The notes under the pieces: generated by a model
The model's input: the letters and a program-made list of their open reading frames with translations, nothing else
What the model was told of the DNA's origin: nothing
The model's database searches: none
Part shown: piece after piece, positions 6,601 to 25,798 of the stretch
Layout: every line of letters starts with the position of its first letter
Position numbering within the stretch: the first letter of the stretch is position 1
Position numbers and translations under genes: made by a program
NCBI GenBank assembly: GCA_903830655.1
Contig: CAIKUQ010000045.1
Coordinates: 19,893 to 83,892 of the forward strand
DNA length: 64,000 nt
Reading direction: 5' to 3'
From: an uncultured Actinomycetes bacterium
GTDB lineage: Bacteria; Actinomycetota; Acidimicrobiia; Acidimicrobiales; RAAP-2

Positions 6601-6882
6601 CACTTCATTGGAATCACCCTCCACGGAACCTCGAGCAACCTCTTCGAGGGCCTGGAGCCACTTCTTTACTCGACTACGCAACTTGGTCTTGAGCTCTCGT
6701 GCGGCATCCTTCGAGAAGGTGACCATGAGCAAACTCTCAGGTCTTTCATTGTTCTCGAGTAACCACCTGACGGCGAGATCGGTAATTGTGTACGTCTTGC
6801 CGGTGCCAGCGCTCGCTGAAATCATGAGCAGTGATGGCAGGTGTTCGGTTGACTCATCAATATTGAAAGTTAAGGACATCAC
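3637..6882 (-). CDS. recB: exodeoxyribonuclease V subunit beta (RecB), UvrD-type helicase plus nuclease
   Basis: SASAGTGKTYTITDLAVRWL, IDEFQDTDKVQWEIF, TTAHASKGLEWKHVLV, YVALTRGKESV, nuclease motif VVVDYKTN. Confidence 0.95.
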   Translation of the reverse strand: MMSLTFNIDESTEHLPSLLMISASAGTGKTYTITDLAVRWLLENNERPESLLMVTFSKDAARELKTKLRSRVKKWLQALEEVARGSVEGDSNEVPRSGAATIISKMGPEVAMARMRSILSDLDEASARTIHSFIGTITKIDAKEQTSANSLVERAVHEELIWRANSETKTVGAALDSSGLNATLETRINALDSRMRSAVDKMASAGEHVSLQNDGNSGFASLLSSARMRVDKLRADEGISTFDGMISDLAAELHEGAEALALALRDQYKIVMIDEFQDTDKVQWEIFQTLFRDTAYGEPTTMVLVGDPKQAIYGFRGGDVEVFRAQQQEIEQRDDPSLKVAVLGTNYRSNKPIIAAYNGLFLFANEIGWPLASMIRPSESQSGEAIPALIYRPVHAAKEGEGRFEIRRAEGKVSQAEPVIRRDVCNEVVRLLNSGVAAPDIAILCAQTRQLKLIGRELQRRKVLSVNVRVDNVFGSDAAWQLRTLLWMLDEPNNPRRVKLLPALWFVLNPSDIADLTLLLASEGFAAVHRHLLNGKTLRKVLGLPQGERCYTDVEHLCELIDMEFPKSSNPLVIRRWLEEMHEEASKANDESARRRIESDANAVRLTTAHASKGLEWKHVLVADLHLTDPKVTISTFTNSEGRVIDVSSVVGIDDVELKQIAESRRIDENRRLIYVALTRGKESVISWIHTEPSSAAPFLDLARDLSIELTSEEGANYLEKWRAEYPGLPIEYPIVRTINEEHFTEFPDVVAKFSEIRLLPTYETPGSVTEAKRRWSYSGLGISSLIESQSEWDAPVVDVAAVKDEDVELDDGSQDDPGRSVFGQLRGASLGLAIHRYFEIIVGAPEITAERKQIALTKAFGEFGILDIPSAMPELLDRLLHRPLGSMFQNKSFADFAGTANELVSAEMRFTLPLFGNLSDDRLMEITKLVCDHDPQGQFAPFFKQLLKTPHYATRLTQGYLTGSLDLVVNVGSEEKPSMVVVDYKTNGAPITKKYDPESLNMEMAKSGYPMQALLYTVALYRFIRSRVTTSNPEELIGGVLYYYVRGALVNASPEDGLMTWQVPSSLIVAVSDALDGRGK

Positions 6883-9800: not shown

Positions 9801-10244
9801 GCTCTTGACTTCGCCAAGTTCCTCACCGGTCGGGTCGAGCAGCGCCTCCGGACGCCATCGATTTAGATTGTCAATAATTTCGCTCAATCTACGCGCCTGT
9901 GAAAACTTTGGGGCCATCCCTTTTCCGACGATCCGCAGAGTTAAAAGCTCTTTCGACCAATTGAGGCGAACGTGACCGATGCTCTGTAGAACAATTCGCT
10001 CAACTTCGCTCACGAGTTGTTCGGGGAAAAAATAGGCCAAGTTGGCCGTTACTCCGTCACGAAATCCATTGCCCGTGCCTAGATTTTCTGAGAGCTGTCC
10101 ATCGAGCCATTGCCGAATTCCTGACGACGGGACAACCAACCACGGTTTCTCCAGCAAGCCGAGTTCAGCGCTGGACAGCGTTGCCGCCACGCTCTCAACC
10201 GCTTCTTGTAAGTCTTCAGATTGGTGAAGGTGTAGTCCAGCCAT
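6879..10244 (-). CDS. recC: exodeoxyribonuclease V subunit gamma (RecC)
   Basis: MAGLHLHQSEDLQEAVESVA start, PRLPIDYAERPAGHFVNRL, size about 1120 aa, 4-nt overlap with recB. Confidence 0.93.
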   Translation of the reverse strand: MAGLHLHQSEDLQEAVESVAATLSSAELGLLEKPWLVVPSSGIRQWLDGQLSENLGTGNGFRDGVTANLAYFFPEQLVSEVERIVLQSIGHVRLNWSKELLTLRIVGKGMAPKFSQARRLSEIIDNLNRWRPEALLDPTGEELGEVKSVYQALSSYGLRPHEQRQLVIDTLRHSKVSGLPSVVALVGLPNMPGGRQFGELLAALSAQCDVHIFEPVATLLEIDREPEFLPSRWNSESGEAKQLYRELAESHNVTVTTAPRQISPRSLLGHLQESMKSGRPSLAAQSDDTVKILGAYGNSRQIETLRSELLEILSDRTLGIEPHDILVITPDLPSFGPLLERHWLYEKQVAETPRLPIDYAERPAGHFVNRLDASAKLLKIIGTRVTIEQLSEFVAIPAVGVALGLEAEEQDRLWALAIDNKVMAGTSNQQRASFELMPSTSTSGVPVNVGTWERFIDGVVTTYTLPAEANSNVRGIGTIDDVQLLARLLPVLHVLENESYLRTSGEKREFAVWLDLLEGWVNELLPSTDTDRSFERELLKFREWSQELSDSVELSMDEFQDLWRGTKGPATAPNVFGRGGILVSGLSALPNVPFKVVALVGFDEANLPGASVGEGLSGERRIGEPSPRQSMLQALAQGILSATSHLIITFNAHSDESGESIEPAIPLEELIEGLSSLTEGTFKPVLTSRHEFFLSPSQPLGRTFDPRVRQLIGIESDTPTAKLDFAEYLDTQRADRRIVSVKELVGFYDSPQKFFLTSVAGAQRPPGWPETVSGASFEWSRWTTSDIRKLLVDEIRTYVREHREVDSVVHLVTDKEVIAKSLVKRDPGIAEAFEYFYSSLLQGLKLDSAKTGAIPPIIWQSAIDRDGIVYEALTIEAEFERFAQVDSLFPRTFKVGDWNIDASGELGDQAEAEFQLYREHLSGALRLVSVVSKRDRYRLDKKGPLTKTHFRTMLGLLLYKAAGVLDIGAELLYLEDLTIFKTGLPRGMGIVPITCSLEADQAAQLLVEILGVYAKVWSGPVPLFPKTTFAVASGESGAGAWEDGYNTFGEGSKSENLILYPYVYEDLQRLLSLDETRHLSALPYVSELRSWKDAFEFDDIKTGSSELAPRIRAAIVAAGGA

Positions 10245-10274
10245 ACAGAACCACTTTATAGAAGGGGTGTGAGA

Positions 10275-11150
10275 CTAATTGGCTGCTTCAACCATCGCTG
10301 TCGACTTCTTGGGCCACCAGCGATCCACTCCAAATATTGCGGCGGCCACCAAACAGCCCGTAAGAAGTTCCAAAATAGCCGTGTGAACTAGGGAGCTGCC
10401 AAAACGCATCGAGAGGACATCGGTGGCCGCACTGGTTAATTCATCCTTGAACTTGCTCCCCATCACGATGCTGTGGACCACCTTTGACATCACAATCAGT
10501 AGGAGAGCCGGAACTACAAAACCAATTCCCGCAACTAGATACCGACCTCTTCGACTACGCATGAGTCCAAATACTGCACCAAGAATCATCACCAAGGCAA
10601 CGAGCCAGAGTGCCACGGAGCCGGTGCCTAATCGATTCAGATTAGAAAACACAACTTTCCCAGGATGAAAATTAACAACCATCTTGTTGGTCGTCGGAAG
10701 CGTAATTGGCACTCTCGGGTCTATTTTGTGGATACTCGCTGTTACCTGATTAACAAGTGGCACAAAATTTATAGAGGTATCTTTCTGTGTCTCAACTGCC
10801 GTGTAGGCCGACCTAACATCGGCGGCGACTAGTTGCTGGACTAGTGGATTATTTAACAACGAAATAACCGCACCATTTATCTCTTTCGCGTGAAGAGTAA
10901 TTAGCTGTGCCACGGCAACCGAGCTCGATTTCTTGAAATCTGTTTCTAGTTGAATGGTCACCGCACTCTGAACCGAGGGCACCTTCATTAATGAGATCAC
11001 GGTGTTCCCCGCATTATCAGCGTTGCCGATGAATCCCCAGCCCGCTCTCAATGGCCCCGAGATAACGAGGAGCAAGATTGCGAGCCCAGTAAGTATCACT
11101 GCGGCACCAATGCGCAGAGTGGACTTTAACGTGGTGTGGGTTTGTGACAT
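10275..11150 (-). CDS. hypothetical membrane protein (start likely MSQTHTTLKS)
   Basis: Several predicted TM helices; no family confidently recognised. Confidence 0.6.
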   Translation of the reverse strand: MSQTHTTLKSTLRIGAAVILTGLAILLLVISGPLRAGWGFIGNADNAGNTVISLMKVPSVQSAVTIQLETDFKKSSSVAVAQLITLHAKEINGAVISLLNNPLVQQLVAADVRSAYTAVETQKDTSINFVPLVNQVTASIHKIDPRVPITLPTTNKMVVNFHPGKVVFSNLNRLGTGSVALWLVALVMILGAVFGLMRSRRGRYLVAGIGFVVPALLLIVMSKVVHSIVMGSKFKDELTSAATDVLSMRFGSSLVHTAILELLTGCLVAAAIFGVDRWWPKKSTAMVEAAN

Positions 11151-11206
11151 GGAACACTCCCAGTTCACTCTTCGCCTAATTGCCAAGAGTTTGTATTTAT
11201 AAAGAC

Positions 11207-11890
11207 CTAATTAAATTCTGAAGCAAGTACGGCGGCGAGCTGGTCGGGTTGACACAAGAAAGGCGAGTGGTCCGAATCTAATTCGACAACCTTGCTCGCT
11301 TGTTGAGACATGGCCTCTTGGGCTACGAGTGGGATTGCTTGATCTTGTTTACAAAGGATGTAAGTCGAGGGCGTCGAAAGCCACGCGCAGGCCGACAACT
11401 TTTGTGAAAAAGAACTGACGCTCTGGGGGCTCAGAGATTGTGCGGTGCTCGAGGCAATCGCTGGTGCGCAGGTGTTGTAAAACACCGACTCGGGTTGCTT
11501 GGGGAAGATGGTCTCGCCATCGGCTGATCGATCCCACCAGGGGGGATCGACTTCGCCACACGCATCCATCAGGCTCGTCCCGACGTTAAGCATGAAAGCC
11601 GTTAAATAAATAAGCCGTGAGACATTTGGCGCACCGACCAGCCCCTGCGTTAGTGGCATTCCCCCGTAGGAGTGACCAAGAACGATGACCTCGTCCCCCA
11701 TTTGATCAACTGCAGCCCGCACTTGCTCGGCATCGCTAAACATGTCACCTAAGGGTTCGCCCTCACGCTGGGCGCTACGGAGATTTAGGGTCTTCGATTC
11801 GACACCTAATTCCTCAAGACTCGATACGAGTGGCGCGAAACCATCTTGATTGTGCCACGCACCATGAACTAGGAGAACCTGTTTCGCCAT
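11207..11890 (-). CDS. alpha/beta hydrolase
   Basis: VLVHGAWHNQDGF, nucleophile elbow GHSYGG, C-terminal LDSDHSPF. Confidence 0.85.
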   Translation of the reverse strand: MAKQVLLVHGAWHNQDGFAPLVSSLEELGVESKTLNLRSAQREGEPLGDMFSDAEQVRAAVDQMGDEVIVLGHSYGGMPLTQGLVGAPNVSRLIYLTAFMLNVGTSLMDACGEVDPPWWDRSADGETIFPKQPESVFYNTCAPAIASSTAQSLSPQSVSSFSQKLSACAWLSTPSTYILCKQDQAIPLVAQEAMSQQASKVVELDSDHSPFLCQPDQLAAVLASEFN

Positions 11891-11919
11891 TGTACGAAAC
11901 TAGTCCACGAGACTTTAAG

Positions 11920-11992
11920 TGGAGACGATGGGGATCGAACCCACGACCTCAGGCTTGCAAAGCCCGCGCTCTACCAACTGAGCTACATCCCC
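11920..11992 (-). tRNA. tRNA-Ala (anticodon TGC)
   Basis: Reverse complement GGGGATGTAGCTCAGTTGGTAGAGCGCGGGCTTTGCAAGCCTGAGGTCGTGGGTTCGATCCCCATCGTCTCCA folds as a cloverleaf. Confidence 0.97.
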
Positions 11993-12020
11993 GAAGGGAT
12001 TTCCAGTGTACCAACTTCTT

Positions 12021-12632
12021 TTACGCTGGTATCTTCCCTCGACGAGCCTTGGGGCCAATCTTGGTAATTACAAGGAAAGCGACGATGGCGTCCACAACAC
12101 AAACTGCTCCGGGAAAGGCGGCGCCGGCCGTCGTGAATTGTTGAAGGGTCAACAGCGTGATACCGGTGTACAGAGAACCCATGAGAAAAGGCGCGTACTG
12201 CTCCGATTCGGGATCGAGCCACGCCTTGCGCAAGGTCGGCAACGCAGCTAATTGGTCGGCCACAACAAAACTTAGGAGTCCTACTAGTGGCTGGTTACTC
12301 ACTAGCCAGTAGATAAGTCCGAGTATCGAGAGCCCCCCGCAGATGTAATCGAATGCCGTGACATCCCAAGAACCATTTTTTGCGATGAAGGTAATGGTCA
12401 AAACGACCGCTGGCATTAGTCCAAGCATCAAAGTGGCTAGTGAAGCCAGACCCACGTGTTGTTGAATCTCCGAAATAAAGGCGAGCAGTCCCTCAACGGT
12501 CCAAAGGCCCCAGGTGATCCGGTGCGGTCGCACCGTCGAACCCTTGGCCAGAATCGCCCGCATGTAGCTGATGGTTCCATAGGCCGACAGCGCCATGGCC
12601 ACGAAGATAAACCGTTGGTCAAGCATTCGCAA
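12021..12632 (-). CDS. hypothetical multi-pass membrane protein
   Basis: About 203 aa, several hydrophobic helices. Confidence 0.65.
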   Translation of the reverse strand: MRMLDQRFIFVAMALSAYGTISYMRAILAKGSTVRPHRITWGLWTVEGLLAFISEIQQHVGLASLATLMLGLMPAVVLTITFIAKNGSWDVTAFDYICGGLSILGLIYWLVSNQPLVGLLSFVVADQLAALPTLRKAWLDPESEQYAPFLMGSLYTGITLLTLQQFTTAGAAFPGAVCVVDAIVAFLVITKIGPKARRGKIPA

Positions 12633-12707
12633 AGTATTACAGAGAATTGTGGCTCAACTTGCCTCAAAAAGTCCCTTGGTGAGGTGGTGTAGATTGGTAC
12701 CCCTGTA

Positions 12708-12784
12708 GGGGCTATAGCTCAGTCGGTTAGAGCGCGTCACTGATAATGACGAGGTCGTAAGTTCGATTCTTACTAGCCCCACCA
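12708..12784 (+). tRNA. tRNA-Ile (anticodon GAT), CCA encoded
   Basis: GGGGCTATAGCTCAGTCGGTTAGAGCGCGTCACTGATAATGACGAGGTCGTAAGTTCGATTCTTACTAGCCCCACCA. Confidence 0.97.
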
Positions 12785-12903
12785 GAACGATCGCTAATGC
12801 TTGTGCGTTGCCGATGAGAACCACCCTTGGCCAATAAGTTCGATATTTGCGAATCATTCGCAAATTGTGCCTCAAGCTGCGCGCACCTCGGTACGCTTGT
12901 TTC

Positions 12904-13860
12904 ATGCCCGCAATCACCGTAGAAAACCCACTCGAATTACCTAAGGTCGCCGCGCCAGTTGACGGTGACCGTCCTCGTCGCGTCAAACAGATCACCACCG
13001 CTCCCCGCGGACTTGAGGGCGAGGGCTTTCCCGTTCGACGAGCCTTTGCGGGAATCGATATCACTGACCTCGACCCCTTCATCCACATGGACCAAATGGG
13101 TGAGATTGACTACGGCCCCGGTGAACCCAAGGGAACGCCCTGGCACCCTCACCGTGGTTTTGAAACTGTTACCTACATGATTGAAGGAACCTTCTTGCAC
13201 CAAGACTCCATCGGTGGTGGTGGTGTTATTGAAAATGGTGCAACCCAGTGGATGACCGCCGGTGCGGGTATCTTGCACATCGAGCGACCACCAGATTCGC
13301 TGATTGACAGTGGTGGCCTTTTCCACGGAGTGCAACTTTGGGTGAATCTACCTTCAAAACTCAAAATGGCTACTCCTCGCTACCAGGACATCGGCGCTGG
13401 TGAGATTTCACTCGTGACCAATGACAACGGTGACGCGGTAGTTCGCGTCATCGCGGGCAGTCTCGGTGAATTCGCTGGCCCGGGGGTGACTCACACACCA
13501 ATTTCGATTGTTCACTTAACCCTCTTCCCCGGTGGCTCCGTGGTCCTTCCTTGGAATCCCGACTACAACGCCTTAACCTATGTTTTGGATGGTCAAGGCA
13601 CTGTGGGGACTGAGCGCTCGCCAATAAGTTCGGGTCAAATGGCCGTGCACGTTGATGGCGACTACCTCGTTCTTAGCGCCGATGCGCAACAGCACTCCAG
13701 TACGGGTGCGCTGGAGGTGTACATCATGGGTGGTGAGCGCATTGGCGAACCGGTCGCGGCGTATGGTCCATTTGTTATGAATACCCGTGCTGAACTACAG
13801 CAGGCGTTTGAGGACTACCAAGCTGGTCGACTCGGCCAGATTCCCGCCAACCATATTTAA
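12904..13860 (+). CDS. pirin family protein
   Basis: FIHMDQMGEIDYGPGEPKGTPWHPHRGFETVTYMIEG, QWMTAGAGILHIE; start ATG at 12904. Confidence 0.92.
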   Translation: MPAITVENPLELPKVAAPVDGDRPRRVKQITTAPRGLEGEGFPVRRAFAGIDITDLDPFIHMDQMGEIDYGPGEPKGTPWHPHRGFETVTYMIEGTFLHQDSIGGGGVIENGATQWMTAGAGILHIERPPDSLIDSGGLFHGVQLWVNLPSKLKMATPRYQDIGAGEISLVTNDNGDAVVRVIAGSLGEFAGPGVTHTPISIVHLTLFPGGSVVLPWNPDYNALTYVLDGQGTVGTERSPISSGQMAVHVDGDYLVLSADAQQHSSTGALEVYIMGGERIGEPVAAYGPFVMNTRAELQQAFEDYQAGRLGQIPANHI

Positions 13861-13867
13861 CCTCTGT

Positions 13868-14509
13868 TTAGCGAGCGGTGCGATCGAGCGTTGGTAGGGC
13901 CGCGGCGGCGATATCGCAGCGCGTTAATGCCTCACTGACTCCCAAGCTAGAGAGCCAGTTAGCGATCATTCGGTGGCCACCCTCGGTCAAGATTGATTCG
14001 GGGTGGAACTGCACACATTCAAAGGGCAGTGTTTTGTGGCGCAGCGCCATTATTAGGCCGTCGCCCGTCGCCGAAACCTCGTAACCCTCTGGCACTTTTT
14101 CGACCACGAGCGAGTGATAACGCCCAACTCGCAGCGGACTCGGCAATCCCGCAAAGATTCCTCGTCCATCGTGTTCCACCTCGGTAGCTCGACCGTGGAC
14201 GAGTGCGGGCGCCAAGACCACCTCTGATCCAAAGGCCAGACCCATGGCTTGGTGGCCAAGACATACTCCCAGAAGTGGGATTTCTAAAGCCTCACAGCGC
14301 TTAACCACTTGACCAAGAATTTCTACTTCACGGGGGTGACCAGGTCCTGGAGAGATCAAGACACCGGCGTAGGTCGCAGCGGTGATTGATTCGAGATCTA
14401 CCTCGTTTGAACGAACCACCACGACTTCGGCTCCGAGCTCGCCCACGTAGTGAACGAGGTTGTAGACGAACGAGTCAAAGTTGTCAATGACGAGAACGGT
14501 CTTTCCCAT
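13868..14509 (-). CDS. trpG: anthranilate synthase glutamine amidotransferase component
   Basis: LVIDNFDSFVYNLVHYVGELGAEVVVVRSNE, SPGPGHP, LLGVCLGHQAMG, QFHPESILTEGG. Confidence 0.92.
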   Translation of the reverse strand: MGKTVLVIDNFDSFVYNLVHYVGELGAEVVVVRSNEVDLESITAATYAGVLISPGPGHPREVEILGQVVKRCEALEIPLLGVCLGHQAMGLAFGSEVVLAPALVHGRATEVEHDGRGIFAGLPSPLRVGRYHSLVVEKVPEGYEVSATGDGLIMALRHKTLPFECVQFHPESILTEGGHRMIANWLSSLGVSEALTRCDIAAAALPTLDRTAR

Positions 14510-14549
14510 AAGGAAATCTTAGTCCTACAAGCAACTACGCTCTCTAGTC

Positions 14550-16070
14550 ATGTGGAAGCCCTCGATCGACGAAGTGCAGTTTGCTGAGCGAGTTCGCACT
14601 GGCGAAAACTTCATCGCTCTGAGTACTACCCTGCAACTCGATCGTGCCACCCCCATCACTATTTACGACCGTTTGCGCGACGAATCAGCCTTCGTTCTCT
14701 TGGAAAGTGCTGCCCTGGCGGAAGAGACTGGTCGCTATTCCTTTATTGGCTTAGACCGACTCTGGCGAGTGCGATCACTGCGCAGTGGCGAGACCACCAT
14801 CAGTACACCAACGACAACCTCCACCGACTCGACTACCCCACCGCTCGACATCATTAAATCCATGCTGGCCAGCTACCACGCCGGTTCTCAAGAGAACTTG
14901 CCAGGCTTATTCGCGGGCGCAATTGGTTACCTTTCTTATGACTACGTTCGCCGACTCGAAAAGCTGCCTCGTTCTGACGAGGGCGCCCTTTGGCCCGACG
15001 TTGATTTCTCCTTTGCCCGGTCCATGATTGTCGTTGACCACGTCCGTCACTCCACCACCGTTATTGTCGGAGCGCTGCTCGAACAAGATGGCGACCAGGC
15101 GTACAGCCGCGCTACTGAGCGGCTCTCGCACCTCGTAGAAGTACTACTCTCTCCACCCGGACAGCAGGACATGGCCGTTGAAGAACTCGTGGCTTCGGCC
15201 CCACTTCGCAAGGCAGCGATTGAAATTCGCTCTATAGCTCAGCGGCTATCTAACTTTCGCAAGGAAGAGTATTGCGAAGTTGTAGTTCGAGCCAAGGAAC
15301 ATATCCGCGCCGGTGACATCTTTCAGGTCGTGCCTAGTCAGCAATTTAAGCGCAAGACCACCGTCGACCCTTTGACTCTCTATCGCATACTTCGTTCGTT
15401 AAACCCTTCGCCCTATATGTATCTGCTCGACATGGGTGACGCCCAATTAGTTGGAGCTTCCCCCGAGATGCTCGTGCAGGTCGATAACGGCGTCGTGCAC
15501 ACCCGCCCAATTGCCGGAACGCGCCGTCGCGGTGATTCTCTCGAGGCCGACTTACAACTTGAACAAGAGATGCTTAAAGACGACAAAGAGATCGCCGAGC
15601 ACATGATGCTCGTTGATCTGGGGCGCAACGATGTGAGCCGAGTTGCCGAGACCGGGACGGTGCGCGTCGATTCGCTCGCCAAGGTTGAGCGATTTAGTCA
15701 CTTGATGCACCTAGTTTCCCAAGTCAGTGGCCGACTAAAGAAAGGTTGGACCTCCTTTGACGCCCTCGACGCCCTCTTCCCGGCGGGGACTCTAAGTGGG
15801 GCCCCCAAAGTTCGCGCCATGGAGCTGATTGATACCTTCGAACCCGTGCACCGCGGTCCCTATGGTGGCGCAGTTGGCTACTTTGCCTTAAATGGTGACG
15901 CGGACTTTGCGATAACTATTCGAACCGTTGCCTTGCGTGATGGCACCGCGACCGTTCAAGCTGGTGGTGGAGTCGTCGCTGATTCTTCACCAGAGTTCGA
16001 ATACGAAGAGTGCATCTCGAAGGCGAGTGCCCCACTGCTCGCGCTCGAGTTGGCTGATCCTTCGAGCTAA
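14550..16070 (+). CDS. trpE: anthranilate synthase component I
   Basis: GDIFQVVPSQQF, PSPYMYLLDMGDAQLVGASPEMLV, RPIAGTRRRG, GTLSGAPKVRAMELID, ATVQAGGGVVADS. Confidence 0.95.
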   Translation: MWKPSIDEVQFAERVRTGENFIALSTTLQLDRATPITIYDRLRDESAFVLLESAALAEETGRYSFIGLDRLWRVRSLRSGETTISTPTTTSTDSTTPPLDIIKSMLASYHAGSQENLPGLFAGAIGYLSYDYVRRLEKLPRSDEGALWPDVDFSFARSMIVVDHVRHSTTVIVGALLEQDGDQAYSRATERLSHLVEVLLSPPGQQDMAVEELVASAPLRKAAIEIRSIAQRLSNFRKEEYCEVVVRAKEHIRAGDIFQVVPSQQFKRKTTVDPLTLYRILRSLNPSPYMYLLDMGDAQLVGASPEMLVQVDNGVVHTRPIAGTRRRGDSLEADLQLEQEMLKDDKEIAEHMMLVDLGRNDVSRVAETGTVRVDSLAKVERFSHLMHLVSQVSGRLKKGWTSFDALDALFPAGTLSGAPKVRAMELIDTFEPVHRGPYGGAVGYFALNGDADFAITIRTVALRDGTATVQAGGGVVADSSPEFEYEECISKASAPLLALELADPSS

Positions 16071-17086
16071 TCGTTCGAAACGGCAACGAGACGTTCTAGC
16101 ACCCGTTGCGCAGCGCCAGTCATGACACTTTCGCGCGCGAGCACGAAACCCGCTTCGAGAGAATCGCAGCGTTGAGCCACGACCAGAGCTAGTCCAGCAT
16201 TTGCGCATACCGCATCAAAGACGGGCCCTTGTTCGCCCCCGAGAAAACTTCGCACGACCGCGACGTTATGGGCCACATCACCACCGCGGAGTTCGTCGGT
16301 GGAAGCGCGCACACCCAAGAGGGCACCCGCGTCAATTCGCTCCTCGCGGATTGTCGCCCCCTCAACAAAGTTCACACTTGAAGTTCCGCTGAGCGAAAGC
16401 TCGTCCAATCCATCATCAGCGCTCACTAGCGCCACCGAGGTCATCGAACGAGCGGCAATGACGCTCGTCATCTTGGCAAGCAATTCTTTTGGCGCTACTC
16501 CAATCAATGAGTAATTGACTTGTGCCGGATTGGCCAGGGGGCCCAGCACATTGAAAATTGTGCGAAAGCCTAAAGCCCGACGAACTGGCGCAATCTTTCC
16601 CAGCATGGGGTGAAAGACGGGCGCAAACATAAAGCCGAAATTGGCCTCCGCGAGACATTCCTTCACGACCTCAACATCAACAGCGATATTTACACCAAGT
16701 CCTTCGAGCACGTCGGCCGAACCCACCGAGGATGAGGCCGAACGATTTCCGTGCTTGGCGACCTTGACTCCGGCTCCCGCGACTACCAAAGATGCCATGG
16801 TTGAAATATTCACCGAATCCAACTGATCTCCGCCGGTTCCCACGATGTCGAGGGCTCCTTCAGGCAAGGAAAAAGTGACGGCCTGCGCGATGAGGGCTTC
16901 TACAAAACCGGTCATCTCCTCGTTTGTTTCGCCCTTGCTGGTGAGGGCGGTGAGAAATGCGCCTATAGCAATTTCATCGACGCGACCGGACAGAATCTCT
17001 TCGAGAGCGGCGCGAGCTTGGGTTCGCTCAAAACTGACCCCACGAACTAGTGGATTCAATACATTTCGAGTGAACTCAGTTGCCAT
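16067..17086 (-). CDS. trpD: anthranilate phosphoribosyltransferase
   Basis: DIVGTGGDQLDSVNISTMASLVVAGAGVKVAKHGNRSASSSVGSADVLEGLGV; PVRRALGFRTIFNVLGPLANPA. Confidence 0.95.
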   Translation of the reverse strand: MATEFTRNVLNPLVRGVSFERTQARAALEEILSGRVDEIAIGAFLTALTSKGETNEEMTGFVEALIAQAVTFSLPEGALDIVGTGGDQLDSVNISTMASLVVAGAGVKVAKHGNRSASSSVGSADVLEGLGVNIAVDVEVVKECLAEANFGFMFAPVFHPMLGKIAPVRRALGFRTIFNVLGPLANPAQVNYSLIGVAPKELLAKMTSVIAARSMTSVALVSADDGLDELSLSGTSSVNFVEGATIREERIDAGALLGVRASTDELRGGDVAHNVAVVRSFLGGEQGPVFDAVCANAGLALVVAQRCDSLEAGFVLARESVMTGAAQRVLERLVAVSND

Positions 17087-17262
17087 AGATGGAGTTTAAG
17101 CCCTCAAATAATCATTGGAGATTCAAAAACGAAACTCTCTTGAGATTTCTTCAATGATTACAACATAATTCATCATGAATCACATTTCAAGTGTTCGTAG
17201 TTGTTCGCCTCTGTTCACATAGTTAAGCCGGTAGATAAGCCGGCTGGAACCGAATGACTATT

Positions 17263-17520
17263 TCAGCCGTCGATCATGAAAACACCATGCTGCCAAATCG
17301 AGGATACGAGCATTAGACAATTGCCAAGGATTGACACCAGAATCGAAGAATCTACAGAACGTATGTCAATTCCATGTATCTCTAGTAATGGAAATTCATC
17401 TTTCACCGAGCTAACTAATTCGCTGGCGCTAATACTTACCTTTATGCCCTCATCGGAGACTTCGCCCATAGAAATAGTTCCGCCAAGACTGAGTACTACA
17501 ACTCTTCTTGAATTGCTCAC
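17263..17520 (-). pseudogene. truncated L-asparaginase, N-terminal fragment only (~85 aa)
   Basis: MSNSRRVVVLSLGGTISMGEVSDEGIKV...VDSSI resembles the asparaginase N-terminus with GGTI; ends before the HGTDT motif; start overlaps the upstream amidohydrolase stop (ATGA). Confidence 0.55.
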
Positions 17521-18665
17521 GAATGCGCAATGCCATAGAGGTGCATTGCATTAGTTCGTCCAATCATCGTGATAACACGAATTGCATCGTTGAGAGTGCA
17601 ATCATTTTCTTCGACCCAAGTCGAAAGAACTCGAGCCATTCCACGACGCCATAGTTTTGCACCAAGAAAATGCAATTCCACCGGCCCCCATCCATCACTC
17701 GAGTAAAGCTGTTTAGAGAAAGGACCAATCTCAAGTGACTCCGCGACAATCTGTGCGCTTTGAAGTCCCGAGTAGTTGAGCGCCTCGCCTACATCAAAAA
17801 ATACATGTGGAAACATCTGTGAAAGGTATGCAGCCTCACGGTGATAAGGGTAACAATGCAGTAGCGCAACTGAAGCTCCAGATGTTTCAGTTGCTTTCAA
17901 AAAGTCGGTCAAAAGTGCCGGATTAGCCCTAACCAAATTTATGTCTGAATCACCATACCCAATGTGAATTTGAAGTGGTAGGCCCGTATCAATACCAGAC
18001 CACATCAAGAAGCTAAGTAAGACAGGATCTTCGACACGAATTTTTCCTGACTTCGCGCATTCACGTATCCAAACATCAGCGGCACTCAAAACATCTGCTT
18101 CACTCGGTCGTTGCTGAGGAACATCGAGACCGTATCGGTACGCGGCGATTGATTTCGTGCCAACAATTCCTCTGGAAACGGCTGAAGCCAATTCCTCACG
18201 AACTCCGTTCGCAAATTCTGCTGCGCTTATTTCACTGCGGACCAACTGTTCAGCAACTGCTTCTAGGCGAACTATTTCATATGTAGGTGCATTGGAGAGT
18301 GCTGCCATTTCCTCTAGATTGGCGAGCTCCCCCGTCGCAAATCCCGTGTCAATGATGAGTGCTCCCAATGAAGCTGCACGCAACAATCGAGCATTCACCT
18401 CCTCAACCCCAAGTTCTAAACGTCTGGCAACGTACAGTTCAGGCGCTGCAAATTCATCTAGACCCAGTTCTGGAGCACAGAATTTACGAATCGCCAAACC
18501 AACTTGTGAGTCAAAGTTTGTGGTTCCAATTCTTCGCGGACGATCAGATTCCGTGATGACATTTTCAAACTTCTCACGACTTAACTCAACACGTAACGTT
18601 CCATGTACATGATGATCAATTAGTAAAAGTTGATCGAGCGCTTCAATAATGGCTGGGTGCGTCAT
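17517..18665 (-). CDS. amidohydrolase family protein (FluG N-terminal-domain type)
   Basis: LLIDHHVHGTLR metal-binding start, LPLQIHIGYGDSDINL, VALLHCYPYHREAAYLSQMFPHVFFDVG, YSSDGWGPVELHFLGA. Confidence 0.8.
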   Translation of the reverse strand: MTHPAIIEALDQLLLIDHHVHGTLRVELSREKFENVITESDRPRRIGTTNFDSQVGLAIRKFCAPELGLDEFAAPELYVARRLELGVEEVNARLLRAASLGALIIDTGFATGELANLEEMAALSNAPTYEIVRLEAVAEQLVRSEISAAEFANGVREELASAVSRGIVGTKSIAAYRYGLDVPQQRPSEADVLSAADVWIRECAKSGKIRVEDPVLLSFLMWSGIDTGLPLQIHIGYGDSDINLVRANPALLTDFLKATETSGASVALLHCYPYHREAAYLSQMFPHVFFDVGEALNYSGLQSAQIVAESLEIGPFSKQLYSSDGWGPVELHFLGAKLWRRGMARVLSTWVEENDCTLNDAIRVITMIGRTNAMHLYGIAHS

Positions 18666-18699
18666 AACACTTCTTTCTTAATTATGAAGTACTACGAAC

Positions 18700-20040
18700 T
18701 TACCAACCAGCATATCCAGCAAGAACTTCTGGAGAAACCTTGCCAGCTACAGCATCAATGATTGCTTGATTAACTATTTCAATAGAACGATCGATTTCTT
18801 GGTCAGTTATGACAAGTGGAGGTGTTACTTCAAGAACATTGCCACCTACGCGGTACACGCATACCCCTAATTCAAAGGCTCGATAGACAACGGCAGATGC
18901 GAGTGCACCATCAGGTGTATTTGACTCCTTATCGGTTACCAGTTCGATTCCATTTGCCAATCCATGACCACGTATGTCGCCAATCCGAGGATGATTAAGA
19001 GACGTAAATCCAGCACGGATACGCTCTCCTGCGCGCGCAGAACGACGAACAAGGTCTTCTTCTTGAATCACTTTAAGTACTTCTCTAGCAACGGCTGAGC
19101 AAATGGGGTTACCGGCGGTAGTCAGTAGCGCTGCAGCTGCAGGCCCATCGAAAATTTCTGCTGGTCCAATTGCGGCTGAAATTGGAAGACCATTTCCAAG
19201 AACTTTTCCGAAACAAACAATGTCTGGAATTACACCGTCAATTTCAAACGCATGCATCATTCCTGGACGTCCAAGACCAACCTTGACCTCATCAACGCAT
19301 AAGAGAACTCCATAACGGCGACATAGCGTTTCTATTCCTTTAAGAAATCCAGGAGGTGGAACCACCATTCCACCGTCGGCAAGCATTGGTTCGACCATTA
19401 TTGCAGCGACATCGCCTACTGCAAAGAGGGCTTCAACTTGTGAATATGTTGCTACAAGTGGATCAGTGCCATCAGTTGGAGGACGAAATGGGTTCGGATA
19501 ATCAACAAAAGCAGTGTCACTATCGGCAACAACAGCACCTGCATCAACGTGAACGCCAGACGCTGCCATAGCAAGTCCAATTCCTCCGTGATACGAATTA
19601 GAAAAGACCACCAACTTGTGTTTACCGGAATTAAAGCGAACTGCTCTCAACGCAACGTCACATGCATCTGAGCCAGCATGGCCTAAATACACTCGACGAT
19701 CTCCGGTACCAGGAACAATCGCCAGTAATTCTTCAGCGAGGCCCACCGACTCATGATGCACTGCAGAGAGGCCACCTGCTCCGGGAGGAGTTTTTGCGGC
19801 CTTCGTCATTGCCTCAACAATGCGAGGATGGCCGTGACCCAGACCAGCAGCTGTCCATGTTGCTGTGAGGTCTATGAGCTCGCGCCCACCAACCTCAACA
19901 AGCGTCGAACCATGTCCCGATTCAAGAGCCAAAGGGAAAAATCGTAATTTTTCAATTCCTGCAACTACTGCCAGGTCGCGGCGGTAAAGCGCCGCCGCGC
20001 CTGGAGCAATGGAATCAAGTCCGAGCGGTTCTTTCATCAA
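18700..20040 (-). CDS. class III aminotransferase (PLP-dependent)
   Basis: YLGHAGSDACDVALRAVR, VFSNSYHGG, LLCVDEVKVGLGRPGMMHAFE, CFGKVLGNGLPISAAIG (PLP lysine). Confidence 0.9.
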   Translation of the reverse strand: MMKEPLGLDSIAPGAAALYRRDLAVVAGIEKLRFFPLALESGHGSTLVEVGGRELIDLTATWTAAGLGHGHPRIVEAMTKAAKTPPGAGGLSAVHHESVGLAEELLAIVPGTGDRRVYLGHAGSDACDVALRAVRFNSGKHKLVVFSNSYHGGIGLAMAASGVHVDAGAVVADSDTAFVDYPNPFRPPTDGTDPLVATYSQVEALFAVGDVAAIMVEPMLADGGMVVPPPGFLKGIETLCRRYGVLLCVDEVKVGLGRPGMMHAFEIDGVIPDIVCFGKVLGNGLPISAAIGPAEIFDGPAAAALLTTAGNPICSAVAREVLKVIQEEDLVRRSARAGERIRAGFTSLNHPRIGDIRGHGLANGIELVTDKESNTPDGALASAVVYRAFELGVCVYRVGGNVLEVTPPLVITDQEIDRSIEIVNQAIIDAVAGKVSPEVLAGYAGW

Positions 20041-21548
20041 ACTTCAGGTGTTGGGAATGGACCCTTTCCGTGACCAGACGATGCAGGCATGTTTTTACCC
20101 TCTGCCTCCCCCAAGTCACGAGTGAGACCCTTGCTTACCTTGACAGCAATTGCTGGCATTGCAACGAGAATGACAACTGCGACCAGCATTGCAGCAAATG
20201 CAACAAATGGTGCAGCTGTCCACGATGTTTGTGATTTCACGTTGTAGTAGAAAACGGCAGCAATCAAGGCTGATCCCAGAATTGGAATAACAACTTCCAC
20301 AATCTTTTCGCGACGTTCAGTAACCAAGTGTTTGATCGTTCCAATCTCAACCATGAGATATGCCACCATGAGTGCAATTGCACCAATAGTTGAGTAGTAG
20401 AAGTACATGTCAAGTGCAGAGTCACCAGTACCAAGAATAGGGTGACCAGCTACAAATGAAATCAATGAGACTACGAACGTAATAGCAATGATGGCAGTTA
20501 GTGCACTCGTTGGCTCACCACGCTTATCGAGCTTGCCCCAAACTTTAGGACCAACACCGTCACGAGAGAACGTAAACAACAAGCGACCCGCAGTACCTGC
20601 CGAGCCCAACAAGCAGCCAAATGAAGACATAATTGCTGTGAAGGAGAGAACTAACGAGAACCAAAGCCCAACGTAATTGTGTCCAAGTTGAGCTAGCGAG
20701 TTACCAGAATGTGAGAACGCAGTCACACCAGCGCTATTTGCTCCGAACCCTACTGTTTGAACAAACATCACAACAACGAACAAGATGCTTGATCCAACTA
20801 CGCAGGCAAGCAGTGCACGAGGAATGTTGCGACGTGGGTTATTTGTTTCCTCGCCAAGTGCGGCCGCACCCTCGAAGCCTCCCCACGAAAGTAGTGCACC
20901 GACAACCGCACCCATAATCACTGAGAAATGCTGTCCTTTGAAACTAAAGACTGAAAGTGTAAGGCCACCCGCGTGGTGATTTCCCCCTTTAGCTAAAACA
21001 ACGATGCTTAGTATCGCCATGCAGGCAACTCCAATGCCTTCAATAACTAGCAAAACCTTTACCACTGAACGAAATTCACGAGTGGCCAACATTGTTGCGA
21101 GTGCAAGACCTATGCCACCACTAAGCAACCAAGGCACGTGCGTAGGATGTGCAGGGTTATTCTGTGCATTAGCGACGAATGCATTGACAAAGCTGCCCAT
21201 CGCACCTACATTTCCGATTGCGAAAAATAGATAGGTAATCATGATGCCCCATCCTGAGAACAATCCAGCACGCGGGCCTAGGGTGTTACCCACAAGTGCA
21301 TATGCCGATCCTCCGCCGCTGTAACGCTGAGTTAAGCGAACAAATCCATGCGATATAAGCAAAATACATAATCCACCTAAAACGAAGATTAATGGAACTG
21401 CTTTACCAACCGCTGCCGCGGATCCTTGACCATTGCCTGACATCGCAAGACTTGGGCCTACGATTCCCAACGACAAACCAAGTGCCCCCCACAGTGTGAG
21501 ATTTCTACGAGGTTTTACGCTGGCATCGCTAAGTGTATTTTGACTCAT
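20037..21548 (-). CDS. APC superfamily amino acid/amine permease
   Basis: LTLWGALGLSLGIVGPSLAMSGNGQGSAAAVGKAVPLIFVLGGL, about 12 TM helices, SWGGFEGAAALGEETNNPRRNIPRALL; start likely MSQNTLSD. Confidence 0.88.
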   Translation of the reverse strand: MSQNTLSDASVKPRRNLTLWGALGLSLGIVGPSLAMSGNGQGSAAAVGKAVPLIFVLGGLCILLISHGFVRLTQRYSGGGSAYALVGNTLGPRAGLFSGWGIMITYLFFAIGNVGAMGSFVNAFVANAQNNPAHPTHVPWLLSGGIGLALATMLATREFRSVVKVLLVIEGIGVACMAILSIVVLAKGGNHHAGGLTLSVFSFKGQHFSVIMGAVVGALLSWGGFEGAAALGEETNNPRRNIPRALLACVVGSSILFVVVMFVQTVGFGANSAGVTAFSHSGNSLAQLGHNYVGLWFSLVLSFTAIMSSFGCLLGSAGTAGRLLFTFSRDGVGPKVWGKLDKRGEPTSALTAIIAITFVVSLISFVAGHPILGTGDSALDMYFYYSTIGAIALMVAYLMVEIGTIKHLVTERREKIVEVVIPILGSALIAAVFYYNVKSQTSWTAAPFVAFAAMLVAVVILVAMPAIAVKVSKGLTRDLGEAEGKNMPASSGHGKGPFPTPEV

Positions 21549-21605
21549 GTGATTCCCCCTATTCACGGCCCGACTTGGACCGATCACTTTTTTTAAACTG
21601 TACTG

Positions 21606-22976
21606 CTACGACGACCATGTGTACCGATACATTTCAATTAATTCTTCGCGAGATGATTGAGCCGAAAGAATGACTTCTCGACCTCGAACTGCACCAATCG
21701 CTTCAATCATTGAATCTCCAAGTATTGAACGGACAATATCACTCGTACATGTCGCAAGTAGGTTTTCAGCTTGGTCAGTACTAAATGACGAAATTTGGTC
21801 TGCAGTCCCCTCGAAAACATTAGGATTTACTGGTGCCTCAACTGGCAGGGCAATCTTCTCATCTATTCCACGTTCGATGAACCCCAAGATAGTGGCCAGC
21901 GCCGCATATGGATTAGCTGTGTGGTCTGTAACTTTGATTTCGACATTTGCTCCATGTGGATTACCGGGCGTCGCCTGACAGAGCCGAACTGCCGCTTCGC
22001 GATTTTCAACTCCCCAACATACCCATGCACCTGACCACTTTCCTGGAAGTAGACGCACACTCGACAGAAGAGAAGGCGCCAGCACCCCAAGTGATTCAGG
22101 AAGCCAGCGCAGTAGGCCTCCAATTGCGGAGGCGCCTTCTTGAGTTAGCCCTCTCTCGTATGCTCCACCAGAAAAAATTGGCGCACCTCGTTGAGTAAGA
22201 CTGCAGTGAACGTGTGCTCCATTACCAAGTCCATCATTGAGAGATTGTGGAGCGAATGAGAGCTTCTTGCCATGACGACGTGCAACTCGTGACAAAATTA
22301 ATCGTGTCACGACCAGGACATCAGCTGCTTCTACAGGGTTAAGTGGCGGAGTAGAAAGTTCAATCTGACCTAAGCCAGCTTCGGCGTGCAGTTGCTCAAG
22401 TTCAATACCTGCAATGCGCAGTCCGCTCGCAATGTCAGCAAAAAACTCTTCATTATCCATCATCGCTCGAAGTCCATAGGCTGGGCCACCACCAACATCA
22501 CCAGTTTTCTCATCAAACCAAGTGAATTCAATTTCATAAGCGCAACGAGCATCAAAATCAGCAGCCACCAAACGCTGGTACTGACTCCGTAGCCTTGCAC
22601 GTGGACAGTGATCTAAAGAATTACCTTCTTGGTCAAAAATGTCGAATGGGGCCCACGCGACACCGTCGCCAAGAATCCGTGCCGCGCTGAGGTCAGCACG
22701 CATGCGCATGTCACCGACAACTGAAAATGATGGTGTTATCGCTAAAACATCATCGATAGAAAATACGGCCCATGAATACGAAGCACCTAAACCGCTGCGA
22801 TGGATTGCAGAAGTTCGTTCAATTGGTACTTGCTTAGCTCGAGCAATGCCTGCATTGTCGATATACGTTCCGATAAGAGTGTGCACGTTCGACTTTTCTA
22901 GTTTCGAAACGAAATCAGATAATTCCTGGTCATTAAAAATTGGCATTATTACGTTGGTCACTTCATCCTCCTCCAA
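21606..22976 (-). CDS. glutamine synthetase family protein (gamma-glutamyl-amine ligase / FluG-GlnA3-PuuA type)
   Basis: NGAHVHCSLTQRG, GVENREAAVRLCQATPGNPHGANVEIKVTDHTANPYAALATILGFIERG. Confidence 0.87.
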   Translation of the reverse strand: MEEDEVTNVIMPIFNDQELSDFVSKLEKSNVHTLIGTYIDNAGIARAKQVPIERTSAIHRSGLGASYSWAVFSIDDVLAITPSFSVVGDMRMRADLSAARILGDGVAWAPFDIFDQEGNSLDHCPRARLRSQYQRLVAADFDARCAYEIEFTWFDEKTGDVGGGPAYGLRAMMDNEEFFADIASGLRIAGIELEQLHAEAGLGQIELSTPPLNPVEAADVLVVTRLILSRVARRHGKKLSFAPQSLNDGLGNGAHVHCSLTQRGAPIFSGGAYERGLTQEGASAIGGLLRWLPESLGVLAPSLLSSVRLLPGKWSGAWVCWGVENREAAVRLCQATPGNPHGANVEIKVTDHTANPYAALATILGFIERGIDEKIALPVEAPVNPNVFEGTADQISSFSTDQAENLLATCTSDIVRSILGDSMIEAIGAVRGREVILSAQSSREELIEMYRYTWSS

Positions 22977-23069
22977 ACAAAATAGTCCAGGTTCTATAAG
23001 TTTTGTTAGTGTGTGAGAGTTACTACAAAATAGCGTTTAGACATCAATTAAGCGCTCGAGAGAGGTCAT

Positions 23070-23909
23070 ATGTGCCGATTGCTCGCTTTTGCCTCAAGTG
23101 ATAACACGACAATTGAATCATTGTTAACACCTGAAGAATTTGATAACTATCGAAAACTATCGGAACTTCACGGAGACGGCTGGGGAGCAGCTTGGCAGAC
23201 CAATGGTTCCTCAGTCCAACAAGCAAACTCAGTTGAACGAGCTATTGACGATGATAATTTTCTTTACATCTCGAAAAAGTCAGCGAATATAGGTATTGTC
23301 CATTTACGCTGGGCTACAACAGGATTTCCCGTATGTGTTGAAAATACCCACCCCTTCGCAGCTGGTAGCTGGCGATTCGCTCATAACGGTGCAATCGCCA
23401 ACAGTGATCGATTGCTCAACGAATTAAGTCCAGCGAGGCGAGTTGCACTGAATGGAACTACAGATTCAGAAATGTATTTTCAATTGCTACTAGAAAACAT
23501 CGAAAAAACTGGTGATGTTGTAACCGCCATACAGGCAACTGTAAAAACAATTCGCAAAGTATGCGGACTCGGATCACTCAATTGCTTGCTTCTGAGTGAT
23601 GGCAGGATGATTGCAGTTCAGGCTTACGGTGAAACCCCTTCTCCAACCGATTCACTTGCAGTGCAGTTAGGTGGCATTGATAAGTTGCCAATTGGACACG
23701 GTGATGAGTACTACCACTTACGATTTACCGTACGAGATGGCAGTATTCTCGTAGCTTCCACCGGAGTTGGCGGTGAAGGATGGGAAGATCTTGGTGAGGA
23801 CTCGATCATTGATGTGAACTTTGCGAGAGGCGATGTGAAAATTCATAATCTGTCTGACGGCGATGTGGTGAGGACTATTCCACTATCCCCCACGATTGCA
23901 GTCGAATAA
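23070..23909 (+). CDS. class II glutamine amidotransferase (EgtC/YafJ-like)
   Basis: N-terminal catalytic Cys (MCRLLAFAS), HGDGWGAAW, HLRWATTG, NTHPFAAGSWRFAHNGAI, TDSEMYFQLLL. Confidence 0.88.
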   Translation: MCRLLAFASSDNTTIESLLTPEEFDNYRKLSELHGDGWGAAWQTNGSSVQQANSVERAIDDDNFLYISKKSANIGIVHLRWATTGFPVCVENTHPFAAGSWRFAHNGAIANSDRLLNELSPARRVALNGTTDSEMYFQLLLENIEKTGDVVTAIQATVKTIRKVCGLGSLNCLLLSDGRMIAVQAYGETPSPTDSLAVQLGGIDKLPIGHGDEYYHLRFTVRDGSILVASTGVGGEGWEDLGEDSIIDVNFARGDVKIHNLSDGDVVRTIPLSPTIAVE

Positions 23910-24066
23910 AAGAAATATCACTGAGATGTGCTCATGTGCTTATCCCAACTACACATGAGAATCAATAGTCCGCACGCCTACCAGAAACTAATTATTAAGA
24001 AATAATTGAAAGAGATTAAGAGCTCAGCATCATTTGGGGAGTTTAAGTGTCGCTACGCACCACGTC

Positions 24067-24951
24067 CTACTTGGACGCAATGTCCTTGGCAATCGCTTCG
24101 AGGTGGTTTAGCCAAATCGACATGTGGCCATCTTCGGCGAAATAGTGAGCGCTGGCTCCTGGAATCGACTTGGTCAGCCAGTCTCCGTGCGAGGAGGGCA
24201 CCATTAGGTCGTTACTGCCATACCAAAGAGAGACCGGCACCGTAATCTCCTGTGGAGAAAACCCCCAGGGCTTGAGGAATGCTCGATCGTCATCAAAAAA
24301 GCCGTCGCTGCTCGTGGCAAAGGCGTGGGCGTATTCCATCGCCGCTCTTTCACGAAGGTACAAAGGAGCCCACGCTTCTTTGTCCACCTCGGACATAACG
24401 TCACCAAATAAATCAATCACGCTGTCAACGGTCGCTCCCTTGAAGGCGTCGCCCGCTGCTCGGGCGTGTTGTTCGTATTCCGGGCCACCGACTTTGGCAA
24501 GTTCGAATTCGTCAATATTGGCTTGACCCATACCTTCGGTCCAGTCAAAGTCAGCGTCGATTGGAGCCACGCCCGCAACCGAAAGCGCCCCCGTGCAACG
24601 TGGGTCCAGCGCCGCGCAGGCTAATGAGTGTGGCCCTCCACCGGACCAGCCAACCGATACGTACGAAGAGCGACTCTCTTTGTCAAGGATCGCTCCGATA
24701 TCTTTGACCACGTCGCCGATGGTTCGTCCCTCACGGCGAGCGGACTGGCCATAGCCAGCGCGAGAGTACGCAATCACAAAAAAATCGCCCATTGTGAGTA
24801 GCTCTTGGTATTGCATAAAGGTAAATACGCAGCCCGGCGTTCCATGGTGAAAGACCACCGTCTGGCCGTTGGGGTTGCCAATTGTTGCGTATTCGAGGTT
24901 GCGTCCATCGACTGTTGTGAGTGAGCGAAGTGAAAGTTCCATAGGGCGCAA
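24067..24951 (-). CDS. alpha/beta hydrolase
   Basis: VVFHHGTPGCVFTF, AYSRAGYGQSARREGR, SVGWSGGGPHSLA. Confidence 0.85.
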   Translation of the reverse strand: MRPMELSLRSLTTVDGRNLEYATIGNPNGQTVVFHHGTPGCVFTFMQYQELLTMGDFFVIAYSRAGYGQSARREGRTIGDVVKDIGAILDKESRSSYVSVGWSGGGPHSLACAALDPRCTGALSVAGVAPIDADFDWTEGMGQANIDEFELAKVGGPEYEQHARAAGDAFKGATVDSVIDLFGDVMSEVDKEAWAPLYLRERAAMEYAHAFATSSDGFFDDDRAFLKPWGFSPQEITVPVSLWYGSNDLMVPSSHGDWLTKSIPGASAHYFAEDGHMSIWLNHLEAIAKDIASK

Positions 24952-25018
24952 TCTTAATATTCATTGAATCACCAATCTAGAAGAGGGGAACAATGGCCCT
25001 CCGCCCTAGAATTGACTA

Positions 25019-25798
25019 ATGGGAACCTACCTCGACGACATCGTGACTCGTCACCGAGTGCGCGCTGCGAGCGATACCCGTAATTGGCGAGAACGTATGG
25101 AAGTGGTGGTTCCTCGCAGCTCGACATTCGCACAGTCTCTCAGGGCCGGTGAAAACATCGCGGTGATTGCCGAAATCAAACGTAAGAGCCCCTCTAAAGG
25201 ATGGCTCGCACCAACACTTGATTGCGTTCACATGGCTGCTCTCTATGCGCAAAGTGGGGCCAGCGCCATCTCGGTACTCACTGATGAAGATGGTTTTGGG
25301 GGAACGCTCCAGGACCTGCGCGACGTAAGTGCGGTTAGTCCGCTCGCGTTGCTCCGGAAAGATTTCACCGTTTGCCACAATGACGTACTCGACGCCTTTG
25401 ATGCTGGCGCAGACGCAATTCTGCTAATCGTGGCCGCCCTTACCGACGGCGAGCTCTCTGAATTTCACGCACTGGCTACACAGCTCGGGATGGACGTCTT
25501 AGTTGAAATTCACTCTGAGGGAGAAGCCGAGCGCGCGGTGGCTCTCGGATCTTCAATCATTGGTATCAATCAACGCAACCTCAACACGTTCGAAGTTGAT
25601 TCAGACCACGCTGCTCAGCTGGCCTCTAGCTTGCCCAGTCACGTAATTAAAGTCTGCGAATCAGGATTACGAACTCCTGACGACGTGGCTACCGCCAGCC
25701 GAGCTGGCTTTGACGCCGTGCTTGTTGGTGAGCACTTCGTTACTAGTAACAATCCTGGAGACCTGGTTCGAGCCTTTGCGAGCATTGCGCGATCATGA
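25019..25798 (+). CDS. trpC: indole-3-glycerol phosphate synthase
   Basis: IAVIAEIKRKSPSKGWLAP, SVLTDEDGFGG, LLRKDFTV, IGINQRNLNTFEVD, ICESGLRTPDDV-like segment. Confidence 0.95.
   Translation: MGTYLDDIVTRHRVRAASDTRNWRERMEVVVPRSSTFAQSLRAGENIAVIAEIKRKSPSKGWLAPTLDCVHMAALYAQSGASAISVLTDEDGFGGTLQDLRDVSAVSPLALLRKDFTVCHNDVLDAFDAGADAILLIVAALTDGELSEFHALATQLGMDVLVEIHSEGEAERAVALGSSIIGINQRNLNTFEVDSDHAAQLASSLPSHVIKVCESGLRTPDDVATASRAGFDAVLVGEHFVTSNNPGDLVRAFASIARS

Follow-up and report, generated by a model that had tools for sequence, protein, structure and literature searches.

A 64,000-nucleotide stretch of DNA from an uncultured Actinomycetes bacterium (contig CAIKUQ010000045.1, positions 19,893 to 83,892; hereafter, the window) carries an AT-rich insert with genes for a glutamine synthetase (GS)-like ligase, an APC-family permease, a pyridoxal phosphate (PLP) enzyme assigned to the alpha-amino-epsilon-caprolactam (ACL) racemase family, an amidohydrolase and a class II glutamine amidotransferase-fold protein. 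We put at about even the chance that this is a horizontally acquired catabolic cassette encoding a gamma-glutamylation pathway for a basic amino-acid-derived amide, lactam or amine, with the ligase, racemase, amidohydrolase and amidotransferase in the roles proposed below. The ligase-permease-racemase core of the cassette is common to two phyla. Computation shows the insertion itself, the families to which the genes belong, their active-site residues, the two-phylum core and the variable hydrolase slot; the window genome is an assembly of 74 contigs (1.4 Mb), and its relatives in the named collections are Actinobacteria. The genes of the insert are as follows.

17266–17520, minus strand: asparaginase remnant, N-terminal part only (Pfam PF00710, E = 5e-4, below the cut-off), with a stop after ~85 codons
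17517–18665, minus strand: putative FluG-type amidohydrolase (AH) of the Amidohydro_2 type; best solved relative 2qpx (LSEI_0440)
18700–20040, minus strand: PLP enzyme, assigned to the ACL racemase family by scores, active-site residues and tree; annotatable as a class III aminotransferase
20037–21587, minus strand: APC-family amino acid/amine permease (Pfam PF00324/PF13520)
21606–22976, minus strand: predicted GS-like gamma-glutamyl ligase; best solved relative PA5508 (4hpp), placed by tree and by absence of the GlnA ammonium-site acids
23070–23909, plus strand: predicted EgtC-like protein of the class II glutamine amidotransferase fold (GAT), transcribed divergently from the operon; assigned by retained residues and model match

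All of these genes had been listed in the initial annotation, including the truncated asparaginase and the divergent class II amidotransferase. The gene overlaps it gave as ATGA are in fact TGATG at the permease/PLP-enzyme junction (TTGA if an upstream TTG start is used) and GTGA at the amidohydrolase/asparaginase junction.

The PLP enzyme scored highest against ACL racemase (2zuk, 383 bits), followed by amino acid amide racemase (356), isoleucine 2-epimerase (253) and GABA aminotransferase (198), and is 47% identical to ACL racemase. In the tree it falls inside a 100/98 clade with the ACL racemases, where the cassette members form a subclade of their own. Six inspected residues (W49, Y137, D210, D238, K241 and K267, in ACL racemase numbering) are kept in the window enzyme and in all nine full-length cassette members, while PuuE and GabT carry I49, E210 and Q241 instead. 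W49, D210, K241 and K267 are taken here to be active-site residues of ACL racemase. The remaining two, Y137 and D238, are anchored in published work (PMC6424897). By clade and active site the enzyme is assigned to the ACL racemase family, and racemisation is its predicted activity; alpha-amino lactams, amides, esters and a thiolactone are substrates of characterised ACL racemases (PMC7431475; PMC11391342). An ordinary aminotransferase like PuuE or GabT was rejected for this gene, given the higher ACL racemase scores, the ACL-racemase active-site residues, the absence of E210 and Q241, and a score that did not exceed the cut-off of that family. The original label of class III aminotransferase holds at the Pfam level only, the enzyme carrying the active site of ACL racemase (W49, D210 and K241).

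The same family keeps similar company in Proteobacteria. Eleven proteobacterial plasmid loci with an ACL racemase homologue were examined (from Shinella, Ensifer, Maritalea, Sulfitobacter, Sinorhizobium, Rhizobium, strain NT-25 and Klebsiella; partly non-independent, as several are from related Rhizobiaceae), and in every one of them genes for a GS-family ligase, an isochorismatase-type hydrolase and an enzyme of the formylglutamate-amidohydrolase type adjoin it. An RpiR regulator was annotated or matched at ten of the eleven, and the homologue at one locus shares 98% identity with the crystallised ACL racemase. Among GabT controls from the same collection, the gene tables of which are incomplete, an annotated GS-family ligase was found within 8 kb at none of six loci. 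A Klebsiella oxytoca plasmid cluster (CP056420, L169) has ligase, APC permease and ACL racemase in the same order as the window (41, 43 and 47% identity, respectively), and differs in having the formylglutamate-amidohydrolase-type and isochorismatase-type hydrolases in place of GAT and AH. A further locus (L148), found in the class search with the PLP enzyme alone, also holds a ligase and an amidohydrolase. The plasmid loci, the Klebsiella gene order and L148 together make the link between the racemase family and gamma-glutamyl ligases the firmest new result.

The closest solved relative of the window ligase is PA5508 (4hpp, 278 bits), followed by an archaeal GlnA (193 bits), and both acids of the GlnA ammonium site are missing. 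A tree of 58 sequences places it with the other cassette ligases on the PA5508/GlnA3-like side, apart from GlnA and PuuA; the label GlnA3-like for the GS2 genes of the Streptomyces loci was assigned from gene order, with no direct comparison with SCO6962. Its score against the NCBIfam model of PuuA is 193 bits, against a cut-off of 650. An identity as GlnA or PuuA was rejected on the tree, the missing ammonium-site acids and the low PuuA score, and the protein is predicted to be a gamma-glutamyl ligase of the FluG/GlnA3/PA5508 side. Neither of the two outcomes that the initial annotation named as refuting its reading was seen: the ligase does not fall with biosynthetic GlnA, and the composition and synteny described below do not mark the block as ancestral.

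The window genome has a second, resident ligase cluster on contig C44 (L160, ~5056–15460), with a GS-like gene at 9693–10982. Its ligase and an aldehyde dehydrogenase were identified by search and the remaining genes by reading open reading frames (ORFs): a PuuD-type gamma-glutamyl hydrolase-like gene, an APC permease, a short-chain dehydrogenase/reductase (SDR) and a cytochrome P450, all divergent from a group of genes that includes the aldehyde dehydrogenase and others resembling an extradiol dioxygenase and a fumarylacetoacetase-type enzyme. This cluster may degrade an aromatic amine.

AH matches LSEI_0440 (2qpx) with an E-value of 2e-72, and its structure model (pLDDT 92) superposes on 2qpx with a TM score of 0.85; a fold search found no relatives beyond LSEI_0440 and, at lower similarity, the uronate-isomerase branch. 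The conserved residues H19, H21, K171, H234, H270 and D324 are the likely metal site. In vivo, PA5508 and LSEI_0440 are each able to substitute for one half of FluG (PMC6478659), and by homology to LSEI_0440, which stands in for the N-terminal half, AH is classed as a FluG-type amidohydrolase.

GAT keeps C2 and the RWAT, HNG and TDSE motifs, which supply the catalytic cysteine and the gamma-glutamyl-binding residues of this fold, and the best match of its structure model is EgtC (4zfk), whose reaction is the removal of a gamma-glutamyl group (PMC9103826). Its score against the EgtC family TIGR03442 is 70 bits (cut-off 219), so it is not EgtC proper. From its cysteine, binding residues and fold, GAT is classed as a class II glutamine amidotransferase of EgtC-like type, with hydrolase activity predicted. 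Among the eleven racemase cassettes, six have GAT and five an M20 hydrolase, and none has both. The same alternation was seen across 57 loci with a GS-like ligase and an AH gene (GAT in 5, M20 in 30, neither in 22, both in none; p = 0.019 without phylogenetic correction). The suggestion in the initial annotation that a class II amidotransferase replaces PuuD fits the EgtC-like fold, the glutaminase signature and this exchange with M20 hydrolases. In Proteobacteria, the hydrolase place appears to be filled by the formylglutamate-amidohydrolase type; an earlier proposal has this family acting on gamma-glutamylglycine when ethanolamine is degraded (PMC9397018).

The order ligase-permease-PLP enzyme-amidohydrolase recurs in ten other actinobacterial genomes, at other loci: four congeners (G215, G289, G047 and G039) and six named Actinobacteria (L065, L066, L068, L070, L100 and L101). 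This recurrence supports the view that the cassette is a coherent import-plus-degradation unit, as had been proposed from the window alone. Between the window and G215, GAT is 57% identical and the other four genes are 65–76% identical, against only 57% for TrpD, which fits sharing by transfer. The PLP enzyme was found (E ≤ 1e-90) in 5 of 395 genomes in the class draw, and in the phylum draw in the window genome alone; the actinobacterial cassette is patchy and rare in the sampled genomes. A gene for an Orn/Lys/Arg decarboxylase adjoins five of the eleven cassettes.

At L026, L065 and L066, two distinct GS-like ligases flank such a decarboxylase, one of them in the racemase cassette and the other, GlnA3-like, with an M20 hydrolase. 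Two further congener loci (L033 in G050, ~5.9–15 kb; L034 in G008, ~4.4–13.6 kb) hold a GS-like ligase, a FluG-type amidohydrolase and a class II amidotransferase together. Both also carry genes for a methylaspartate ammonia-lyase and an isochorismatase-type hydrolase, as well as two SDR-like genes, and their content suggests that the ligase-hydrolase set is used there in a different pathway.

From these genes we infer a substrate, an order of steps and every catalytic activity. A basic, amino-acid-derived compound would be imported, most likely an alpha-amino amide or lactam (e.g., lysine or ornithine lactam) or a related amine, and the ligase would couple the gamma-carboxyl group of glutamate to its amine. 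The ACL-racemase-family enzyme would most likely invert the alpha-carbon, making both stereoisomers usable, while AH would most likely open or process the amide or lactam, or its glutamylated form. GAT would then strip off the gamma-glutamyl group, giving glutamate back. Such a pathway would be largely non-redox. The decarboxylases beside five cassettes are a hint of a lysine- or ornithine-type compound. A broader proposal, which we rate somewhat short of an even chance, is that ACL racemase is a core enzyme of a widespread, mobile gamma-glutamylation pathway in Actinobacteria and Proteobacteria, serving the non-redox breakdown of chiral alpha-amino amides, lactams or thiolactones with interchangeable hydrolases. 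If true, the pathway would also give the FluG-type amidohydrolase a chemical role.

Several points weigh against this pathway. The ACL racemase family lies within the aminotransferase fold, so the enzyme may have transaminase activity; no Orn/Lys/Arg decarboxylase above cut-off was found in the window genome; most of the actinobacterial loci were recruited through the amidohydrolase; the alternation of GAT with M20 hydrolases comprises few independent cases; and polyamines induce a similar ligase-amidohydrolase pair in Streptomyces coelicolor, namely glnA3 and the Amidohydro_2 gene that comes after it (PMC5403932). This last point favours the main alternative, a possible but rather doubtful one, in which the island serves diamine or polyamine gamma-glutamylation of a GlnA3/Puu-like kind: the ligase would form gamma-glutamyl-putrescine or -cadaverine, the PLP enzyme would act as a transaminase in place of PuuB, an aldehyde dehydrogenase encoded elsewhere would serve for PuuC, and GAT or AH for PuuD. 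The window ligase lies on the same side of the tree as the GlnA3-like genes, the decarboxylases beside the cassettes are of a diamine-making type, and eight matches to the aldehyde dehydrogenase family occur elsewhere in the window genome. However, the PLP enzyme has the active site of an ACL racemase and not of an aminotransferase, and no dehydrogenase gene is common to the cassettes or to the plasmid ACL racemase clusters. The Puu variant of the initial annotation meets the same difficulty, as no redox enzyme of the PuuB or PuuC type occurs in this cassette or as a shared member of the related ones, and the PLP enzyme is not PuuE-like.

It is improbable that the insert is decaying and no longer works as a pathway. 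The truncated asparaginase could be read as a sign of this, being a remnant with a stretch resembling its continuation in another frame (read by eye), but the remaining five genes are complete, retain their catalytic residues and show the coupled gene order of their relatives. No asparaginase was detected in the related cassettes with the fragment as query, so it need not belong to the pathway.

The racemase-centred gamma-glutamylation pathway has partial counterparts among known systems. The window PLP enzyme shares a clade and all six inspected residues with ACL racemase (EC 5.1.1.15; 2zuk, 5m46–5m4d) and amino acid amide racemase (6gio), but belongs to the separate subclade of the cassette members, for which racemisation is predicted. 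In the S. coelicolor glnA3 operon (SCO6962-SCO6961-SCO6960) a gamma-glutamyl ligase likewise adjoins an Amidohydro_2 protein, but the substrates are polyamines and neither an ACL-racemase-type gene nor a class II amidotransferase is described there (PMC5403932). Aspergillus FluG is an amidohydrolase-ligase fusion, both halves of which are represented in the window (best solved relatives LSEI_0440 and PA5508), although as separate genes accompanied by a permease, a racemase-type enzyme and GAT. Escherichia coli Puu (puuPADRCBE) shares a permease, a GS-like ligase and a candidate glutamyl hydrolase with the island, which differs in lacking PuuB and PuuC, in the fold class of the hydrolase and in its PLP enzyme. 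EgtC of the ergothioneine pathway has the class II Ntn fold and is the best structural match of GAT, but the two are only ~20% identical and GAT scores below the EgtC family cut-off. The automatic annotation of a Brevibacterium genomic island (PMC12467314) lists an M20 deacetylase, an ipuC ligase, murR, cadA, a 2-aminohexano-6-lactam racemase and puuP together, as a bare gene list in a table.

Every enzyme family of the island is known; what was not found described is the racemase-ligase combination as a conserved mobile unit. The open-access papers searched yielded no such description of an ACL-type racemase with a gamma-glutamyl ligase (most subscription literature lay outside the search), and no physiological pathway for ACL racemase was found in the open literature searched. 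The association gives ACL racemase, an industrial enzyme, a testable natural context and ties it to GS-like ligases and to the FluG-type amidohydrolases, FluG being a protein that controls fungal sporulation. It also illustrates how a recurrent pathway can go unnoticed behind annotations such as 'aspartate aminotransferase family protein' or 'glutamine synthetase family protein'. Compact systems in culturable organisms (e.g., Shinella zoogloeoides, Ensifer) are offered for finding the substrate.

The position of the insert is defined by the following features.

17101–24047, no strand: inserted island, 6,947 bp including one direct-repeat copy; delimited by the empty sister site and by composition
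17091–17100, plus strand: left copy of the 10-bp direct repeat GGAGTTTAAG
24038–24047, plus strand: right copy of GGAGTTTAAG
16067–17086, minus strand: trpD, to the left of the island and downstream of its operon; the sister genome has it in collinear position, with 88% identity
24067–24951, minus strand: alpha/beta-hydrolase gene (ABH), right neighbour, outside the island; 86% identical in the sister genome, where it adjoins trpD

An AT-richer block at 17100–24000 had been reported before, and GC, codon usage and GC at third codon positions (GC3) all depart from those of the flanks. GC is 44–50% across ~17.1–24.05 kb and 54–58% outside it (~47% for the island against 55% for the genome); GC3 is 0.31–0.41 in the five intact island genes compared with 0.58 ± 0.05 in 37 flanking genes (z = −3.3 to −5.1), and the codon-usage distance is 0.23–0.28 compared with 0.145 ± 0.03. 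The closest relative (G019, TrpD 88% identical) does not have the block: window positions 12843–17100 and 24068–25749 align to adjoining stretches of its locus L039, with ~20 bp between them and a single copy of the 9-bp core of GGAGTTTAAG. With this empty site and its foreign composition, the block is a genomic island that arose by insertion. In the window GGAGTTTAAG occurs just twice, with no copy on the opposite strand, and the pair looks like a target-site duplication. No recombinase gene was found among the island ORFs, and the alignment of the island ends was equalled by 10 of 300 shuffles, i.e., inverted ends were not significant; a classical transposon or an integrase-borne element was rejected on both counts. 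Scans for promoters and terminators gave nothing better than shuffled sequence. An immediate AT-rich donor was not found, the six other cassettes measured having 60–71% GC, near that of their own flanks.

The block does lie between trpD and trpC, as first noted, but it does not split a trp operon, because trpD (minus strand) and trpC (plus strand) are divergent neighbours, ~50–100 bp apart in most congeners. The sister order, trpD-ABH-trpC, puts the entry point of the block between trpD and ABH. Since these two genes are co-directional in the sister, the insert now separates trpD from whatever lay upstream of ABH, and could possibly affect trpD expression. That the block was ancestral to the genus and lost by the sister is hardly credible and was rejected on the empty site, with its direct repeat, and on composition: the cassette does occur in congeners G215, G289, G047 and G039, but with host-like GC (60–71%, against ~47% in a 55% genome here), the two congener loci tested directly (L026 and L027) have no trp gene next to it, trpD and trpC nearly abut in most congeners, and the order trpD-cassette-ABH was seen in no relative.

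The presence of ABH between trpD and trpC (24067–24951 in the window; 9733–10614 in L039) is common to the window genome and its sister, other congeners having ~50–100 bp there. ABH looks like an earlier insertion with host-like GC. The trp loci L040 and L043, from genomes labelled as one genus (G022 and G032), differ widely in GC content (49% and 72%, respectively), an unusual spread within a single genus.

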